DNA of 64,000 nt from Phymorhynchus buccinoides. Taxonomy: Eukaryota; Mollusca; Gastropoda; Neogastropoda; Raphitomidae. Location of the stretch: the NCBI GenBank assembly GCA_017654935.2, contig CM065682.1:76213993-76277992 (forward strand). The letters run 5' to 3'. The position numbers and the translations under genes were made by a program. This document shows, in pieces, positions 25,124 to 63,678 of the stretch (position 1 is the stretch's first letter; every line of letters starts with the position of its first letter). The notes beneath the pieces were generated by a model that worked only from the letters and a program-made list of their open reading frames with translations, searched no databases and had not been told where the DNA came from.

Positions 25124-25284
25124 CTAGCTGCGGGGCAGGGAGCACATTTCGCAGGCGGCGAGGCCCGCGGAGTTGAGGAAGGTGCAGTGGGCGCAGGTCC
25201 AGGTGGAGCCACTGCTGCCCCCTCCGATGGGGGGCAAAGGAGGGGCGCCGGGGCCCACGTAGGAGGCCTGCCGCGGGGAGTGGT
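25124..25284 (-). CDS. NPLOC4: NPLOC4 terminal coding exon v14 (NZF zinc finger, stop)
   Basis: A 161-base exon ending in TAG (25124-25126). It encodes a Pro/Gly-rich linker and then [11 protein letters not shown]...CEMCSLPRS, a RanBP2/NZF finger with spacing C-x2-C-x10-C-x2-C and the ubiquitin-contacting Thr-Phe pair. Human NPL4 ends in the same way (CEMCSLPRT). Acceptor GCAACAG|ACC. GC content is much higher than in flanking DNA. Confidence 0.95.

Positions 25285-63678: not shown

Follow-up and report, generated by a model that had tools for sequence, protein, structure and literature searches.

The locus encoding NPLOC4 raises the question of why the boundaries between exons and introns should be copied repeatedly into the adjoining introns, whether this is a peculiarity of one gene, and how a gene so arranged could be spliced. 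The window, the whole stretch of DNA analysed, comprises 64,000 nucleotides of a 2.12 Gb eukaryotic assembly. NPLOC4 is located on the minus strand of the window, where 14 exons were mapped by tblastn with a human sequence, after which the exact borders were set from the codon phase and the AG/GT dinucleotides at the edges. AG or GT was present at every splice edge assigned. The best named relative of the deduced NPL4 sequence was that of Pomacea canaliculata (78% over 93% of the query) and the best named relative of CCT5, one of the chaperonin genes described below, was that of Babylonia areolata (85%), similarities which most likely indicate a caenogastropod snail.

The first-pass annotation had proposed that eight of the 14 exons carry one splice boundary tandemly duplicated at the exon. 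Repeats were present at all eight edges, the donor edges of v2, v9 and v11 and the acceptor edges of v5, v7, v10, v12 and v13 (Table 1). The tandem arrangement was confirmed for v2, v5, v7, v10, v11 and v12, in which the duplication or array abuts the exon, but not for v9 and v13. The copies of v9 and v13 also contain exon edge and intron edge alike and are separated from their exons, by 6.7 kb and 716 bp respectively; they are not abutting tandem arrays. Tandem arrays were detected by TRF at v2, v7, v10, v11 and v12. The v5 duplication was absent from the TRF and BLAST lists at the settings used and is visible in the sequence itself. The units are minisatellite-like, with periods of 61 to 167 in the five TRF-detected arrays and ~30 for v5. 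The acceptor edge of v13 is present in two copies, the exon copy included, which lie too far apart to form a tandem unit. The distance between exon v9 and the start of its array in the window is explained by a reverse-transcriptase element located between them, whereas only ~335 bp separate the exon copy from the first further copy of the v9 edge in two other versions. RVT_1 was matched, with an E value of 1.6e-19, by one of the three frames of this element that were scanned. The element, which we take to be DIRS-like, contains long open frames that overlap.

Table 1. Exons of NPLOC4 with copied splice edges and the associated features, in window coordinates.
Feature	Position	Strand	Description
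NPLOC4 exon v2	61412..61524	-	AG/GT edges
v2 donor-edge array	61147..61450	-	4 copies including exon copy, one partial; period 78-102; exon depth 39
NPLOC4 exon v5	52688..52782	-	AG/GT edges
v5 acceptor-edge duplication	52768..52831	-	2 copies of ~30 bp including exon copy; read from sequence; decoy AG present
NPLOC4 exon v7	50117..50296	-	AG/GT edges
v7 acceptor-edge array	50257..50866	-	5 copies including exon copy; period 114-126; exon depth 40
NPLOC4 exon v9	47799..47925	-	AG/GT edges
Reverse-transcriptase element between exon v9 and v9 array	~41960..47426	-	extent from open frames; RVT_1
v9-derived donor-edge array	37118..41105	-	~103 copies besides exon copy; period 37-43
NPLOC4 exon v10	34903..35063	-	AG/GT edges
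v10 acceptor-edge array	34998..36162	-	8 copies including exon copy, spacing 137-167; extra distal part copy 36656-36582
NPLOC4 exon v11	32886..33059	-	AG/GT edges
v11 donor-edge array	32056..32911	-	14 copies including exon copy; period 61; exon depth 26
NPLOC4 exon v12	31039..31155	-	AG/GT edges
v12 acceptor-edge array	31121..31592	-	5.2 copies (5 including exon copy, and a short part); period 90; exon depth 35
NPLOC4 exon v13	28816..28927	-	AG/GT edges
v13 acceptor edge, dispersed second copy	29608..29667	-	716 bp upstream; identity 92% across 62 bp

Donor and acceptor edges were both affected, in NPLOC4 and in CCT5. The units of the 16 edge-spanning arrays of NPLOC4, CCT5 and CCT1 reached 26 to 101 bp into the exon, and in none of the 16 was a whole exon inside the array. 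A clear signal of microhomology at the unit ends was not visible, as judged by eye only.

Exons of NPLOC4 were found in five clusters on one contig, named A, W (the window), B, C and D, that lie within ~300 kb (G000:C3:76110001-76430000); one is inverted, and 500-N gaps separate several of them. Versions A and W are inverted relative to each other and 98.6% identical over 37.9 kb. Versions B, C and D sit between 500-N runs, and C and D are pieces of ~25 kb. Three small contigs, C515, C1055 and C3518, measure precisely 25000 or 50000 bases, a hint that they were cut out during scaffolding. Identity between the window and part of version C (G000:C3:76380470-76385962) was 80-85%, and a single 4.9 kb alignment there contained 438 gaps, as would be expected of unpolished sequence; the second half of C is indel-rich. 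Copy number varied among the versions, which may be alleles that scaffolding placed next to each other or paralogues of recent origin, for v2, v9 and v10. Besides the exon, version W has 103 copies of the v9 edge, version A has 101 and versions B and D have 6 each, with two matches only in the scan of C. Excluding the part copy, the v10 edge numbered 8 copies in both W and A, as compared with 2 in each of the other three versions, and the v2 edge, partial copies included, was present in 4 copies in W, 11 in B, 12 in C and 11 in D. The stretch of version A that was analysed yielded no exon v2. The v11 array hardly varied (14 copies in W, A, B and D; 13 in C) and the v12 array did not vary, with 5 copies in every version. 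The reverse-transcriptase element is present in W and A, which align continuously across it; the v9-v10 spacing of ~1.5 kb in B and D leaves no room for it.

The arrangement is not special to NPLOC4, as a search for similar copies elsewhere showed. A genome search for the chaperonin family yielded 54 matches, and the surroundings of 28 were analysed; the sample excluded open frames that looked bacterial, copies nearly identical to one another and the weaker matches. A direct copy overlapping the exon core was found within 600 bp at 17 of the 28 chaperonin cores and, by the same rule, at 5 of the 14 NPLOC4 exons. Random 165-bp anchors subjected to this 600-bp rule were positive in 34/200 cases at window positions 1-24 kb and in 18/200 at C3:76.28-76.33 Mb. 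Random anchors in NPLOC4 introns (98/200) were dropped as a background, being dominated by v9 and other expanded arrays. The Sec1 family gave 19 genome matches, and 3 of the 8 exons sampled had such copies.

When one common exon-edge rule was applied, a rule that misses v5 and v9 of NPLOC4, copies were found at 27 of 55 exons, on 34 edges. The counts by gene were 8/8 for CCT5, from which the broken exon 8 was dropped and in which the N-terminal exon was not found, 4/10 for CCT1, 6/15 for other CCT genes, 3/8 for Sec1 and 6/14 for NPLOC4. Outside NPLOC4, edge copies occurred at 21 of 41 CCT and Sec1 exons versus 22 of 300 pseudo-exons (Fisher P 4e-11), an imperfect match in that the pseudo-exons were 150 bp long, came from three nearby unannotated stretches that may be intergenic, and had flanks of 600 bp as compared with 500 to ~2500 bp for the real exons. 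The nearest copy was more than 600 bp away at one of the 34 edges, that of NPLOC4 v13. Splice-edge copying is a real and recurrent feature, also outside NPLOC4.

Two side observations concern the same genes. Two candidate copies of CCT5 exon 8 (G000:C33:1075480-1076140) were seen, of which one is broken and the other fuller, and parts of the acceptor are repeated there. One stretch of the Sec1 family, present at G000:C28:36025556 and G000:C28:36082053, lies within an open frame of 400 codons at one of these places and of 58 codons at the other, a difference that may reflect differing array lengths.

The answer to whether junctions are hit more often than expected depends on what is counted. 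In NPLOC4, CCT5 and CCT1, 16 of 32 arrays span a splice edge. Random placement of the arrays, with exon-swallowing positions excluded, gave a mean of 4.73 when arrays were placed at full length and 1.91 when reduced to one unit, and 16 was reached in 0/2000 runs of either kind; an independent run returned means of 4.63 and 1.92 with maxima of 14 and 8. The identical 16 edge arrays were recovered at four TRF thresholds among totals of 27 to 49 arrays (0/2000 each). The excess per array is about three- to eightfold, to be read with the fact that NPLOC4 was given beforehand as the finding and that the decision to read CCT5 and CCT1 in full followed the sighting of arrays in part of them. For CCT5 and CCT1 only, 11 of 22 arrays were edge arrays against a full-length null of 3.86, a number reached in 2/5000 runs. 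With full-length placement of single genes, CCT5 had 9/19 edge arrays versus 3.4 (reached in 14/5000), NPLOC4 5/10 versus 0.8 (5/5000) and CCT1 2/3 versus 0.5 (353/5000), the last of which is not significant. A null with GC-matched units had a mean of 2.52 and a maximum of 8 in 1000 runs, and does not support GC content as the cause of the excess.

Arrays without an edge exist beside the edge arrays (16 of 32); 4 of these resemble an exon of their own gene and 12 of the 32 contain neither edge nor exon sequence. Only 5 arrays were found in 93.4 kb of three nearby stretches with no mapped NPLOC4 exons, versus 32 in the 80.9 kb of the three genes. Positions 1-24600 of the window contain many long dinucleotide repeats (GA at 6486-7270 and GT at 15939-16253, for example) and, at the thresholds used, only 2 arrays with longer units.

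A circular-shift test of base coverage gave a different result, in that junctions located within arrays were not enriched over shifted positions of the same genes. The observed numbers were 9/17 for CCT5 (shifted mean 9.7), 4/19 for CCT1 (2.1) and 7/27 for NPLOC4 (6.1), and the shifted sets at 1500 bp reached them in 73% of trials for CCT5, 46% for NPLOC4 and 18% for CCT1. The absence of enrichment per base is attributed to expanded arrays that occupy much of the introns. In this test the expanded copies of arrays born at an edge are counted as background. The claim of the first-pass annotation that junctions are chosen beyond chance held, in these three genes, for the number of arrays and failed for base coverage. 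Likewise, a position independent of junctions, as expected of ordinary intronic minisatellites, was contradicted per array, while per base independence was not rejected.

The arrays had been described as spanning splice junctions and extending only into the intron. This was borne out by all 191 decoy sites at 20 edges, CCT5 exon 8 included, each of which is displaced from the authentic site towards the intron, within a search region of the array plus 60 bp. AG or GT was kept in 181 of the 191. At the 20 edges no decoy acceptor found follows the authentic acceptor and no decoy donor found precedes the authentic donor, an arrangement that yields the shortest exon. Exon definition would choose the site pair giving the shortest exon. 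The gene had been supposed to require correct splicing among many decoys; the decoys are indeed numerous, but the burden that they impose may be small because the authentic site is innermost at the edges examined. The nearest decoy was at a multiple-of-three distance for 15 of 34 edges (expected 11.3; P 0.20 versus one third), and with this edge-by-edge result the proposal that decoys are selected for frame was dropped. By an approximate reading, 26 of the 34 inserts from the nearest decoy contain at least one in-frame stop. Since use of the nearest decoy would preserve the frame at under half of the edges and would mostly introduce stops, the edge copies are probably silent rather than used, and the frame analysis hints that splicing to a decoy would be harmful in most instances. 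The unit length was a multiple of three in 11 of the 16 edge arrays and in 3 of the 16 others, a difference that had first suggested frame-keeping arrays.

These results are probably best explained by minisatellites of the type named mirages in lancelets, in which local duplication recurs near exons, is kept where the exon remains intact and is followed by expansion. A segment of ~30 to 170 bp straddling a splice junction would be copied beside itself, or nearby, into the intron. Such a copy would be harmless in that the original exon and its own splice site stay intact and still define the shortest exon; exon definition would then be the reason why splicing survives. Exons or the adjoining DNA would seed duplications more than deep intron or non-genic DNA, and copies within exons would be purged by selection. 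Once established, the copies would gain and lose units as minisatellites generally do, with unequal exchange or slippage as the presumed driver of expansion and contraction. This explanation is built on the observed anatomy of the units, their recurrence in other genes, the junction excess per array and the differences in copy number between versions of the locus. Edge-targeting and selective keeping, the two mechanisms offered in the first-pass annotation, both fit, and the data here do not distinguish one from the other.

Several other explanations were weighed. Mutation directed to junctions, in which events linked to splicing or transcription (R-loop ends, structures of nascent RNA, template switching) make duplications at edges, is a possibility to which we give well under even weight. 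It accords with an excess that persists after exclusion of exon-destroying placements and in the GC-matched null, and with the scarcity of arrays in nearby stretches. The unit ends, however, are found at no fixed distance from the junction, given the spread of exon depths, and the 12 arrays that lack edge and exon sequence are not accounted for; moreover, copies anchored in conserved exons could stay detectable for longer, which might by itself produce up to a ~twofold excess. A broader form of this idea is equally tentative, namely that duplications in the snail lineage are made preferentially at exon edges genome-wide in connection with transcription or splicing, with about half of exons carrying unstable decoy arrays and with exon definition operating throughout. 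The opposite reading, that minisatellites arise everywhere in genes with no preference and hit edges in proportion to the bases covered, is unlikely. The frequency with which shifted sets equalled the observed numbers agrees with it, but that null treats expanded edge-born copies as background, and the excess per array and the few pseudo-exons with copies in the nearby unannotated stretches oppose it.

It is improbable that the copies serve as alternative splice sites selected for peptide repeats or for exon recognition. Most decoys do retain their AG or GT and some short exons lie within very long open frames (956 and 698 codons, for example), yet intact sites are also expected of young, homogenised arrays, and neither the frame of the nearest decoys nor the stops in the inserts favours use. 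Least probable by a small measure is that the arrays are an artefact of assembly. The 500-N gaps around copies of the locus, the ~25 kb size of C and D, and the indels in the second half of C are features that such an artefact would explain; against this, the arrays recur in A, B, D and W as well as in unrelated genes on other contigs, and the copies inside one array differ from each other. Recurrent duplication retained where the exon stays intact is the explanation preferred. The occurrence of such arrays in a mollusc, at about half of the exons sampled, opens two questions to study by long reads: whether exon edges are the target of the duplication, and how splicing chooses among tens of near-identical sites. 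Exon-like copies can also mislead exon annotation and gene models in genomes of this kind.

Exon-intron boundaries duplicated in tandem were first given the name "mirages" for Adh3 of lancelets and were reported for globins as well (PMC3087553). The genes described are the globins BflGb6 and BflGb9 (PMC3087553) together with PGBD5 and TnC (PMC3902484), and more lancelet loci are mentioned (PMC3087553). One globin gene had 6 and 3 units in two haplotypes, with RT-PCR suggesting regular splicing, and somatic instability was reported for the Adh3 mirage (PMC3087553). As in lancelets, the units of the snail arrays span the exon-intron boundary and combine exon edge with intron edge on the acceptor or the donor side (PMC3087553, PMC3902484). 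Also shared are units of ~10 to 160 bp and the retention of many AG/GT sites; the lancelet arrays differ in length between haplotypes or assemblies, to which the copy-number differences between versions of the snail locus may correspond (PMC3087553, PMC3902484).

In human genes within segmental duplications, boundary minisatellite units vary between near-identical copies, as they do in the snail; those repeats had a mean unit of 30 bp and 4 copies, with 27 intron modifications after manual inspection (PMC2812944). For many of the human cases there are transcripts that retain the repeat (PMC2812944), whereas the snail arrays are in conserved housekeeping genes and leave the exon intact. Intron gain by tandem genomic duplication likewise duplicates splice-site sequence, but there the duplication creates the intron, while in the snail an existing intron gains edge copies that include genuine intron sequence (PMC4974935). 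The accessible portion of a study of gastropod hemocyanin introns did not describe such arrays (PMC7931591), and no mollusc paper describing them was recognised in the literature searched, most subscription papers being outside reach.

The structure is therefore one already known as mirages, and what is new, as far as the searches show, is the phylum, the density and the array size. The lancelet examples are a few cephalochordate genes, among which the globins have 3 to 6 units and PGBD5 has 2 to 7 (PMC3087553, PMC3902484). The snail arrays add a mollusc to this short list and widen the record from isolated cases to about half of the exons sampled, including about half of the 41 outside NPLOC4, with one array of ~103 copies.
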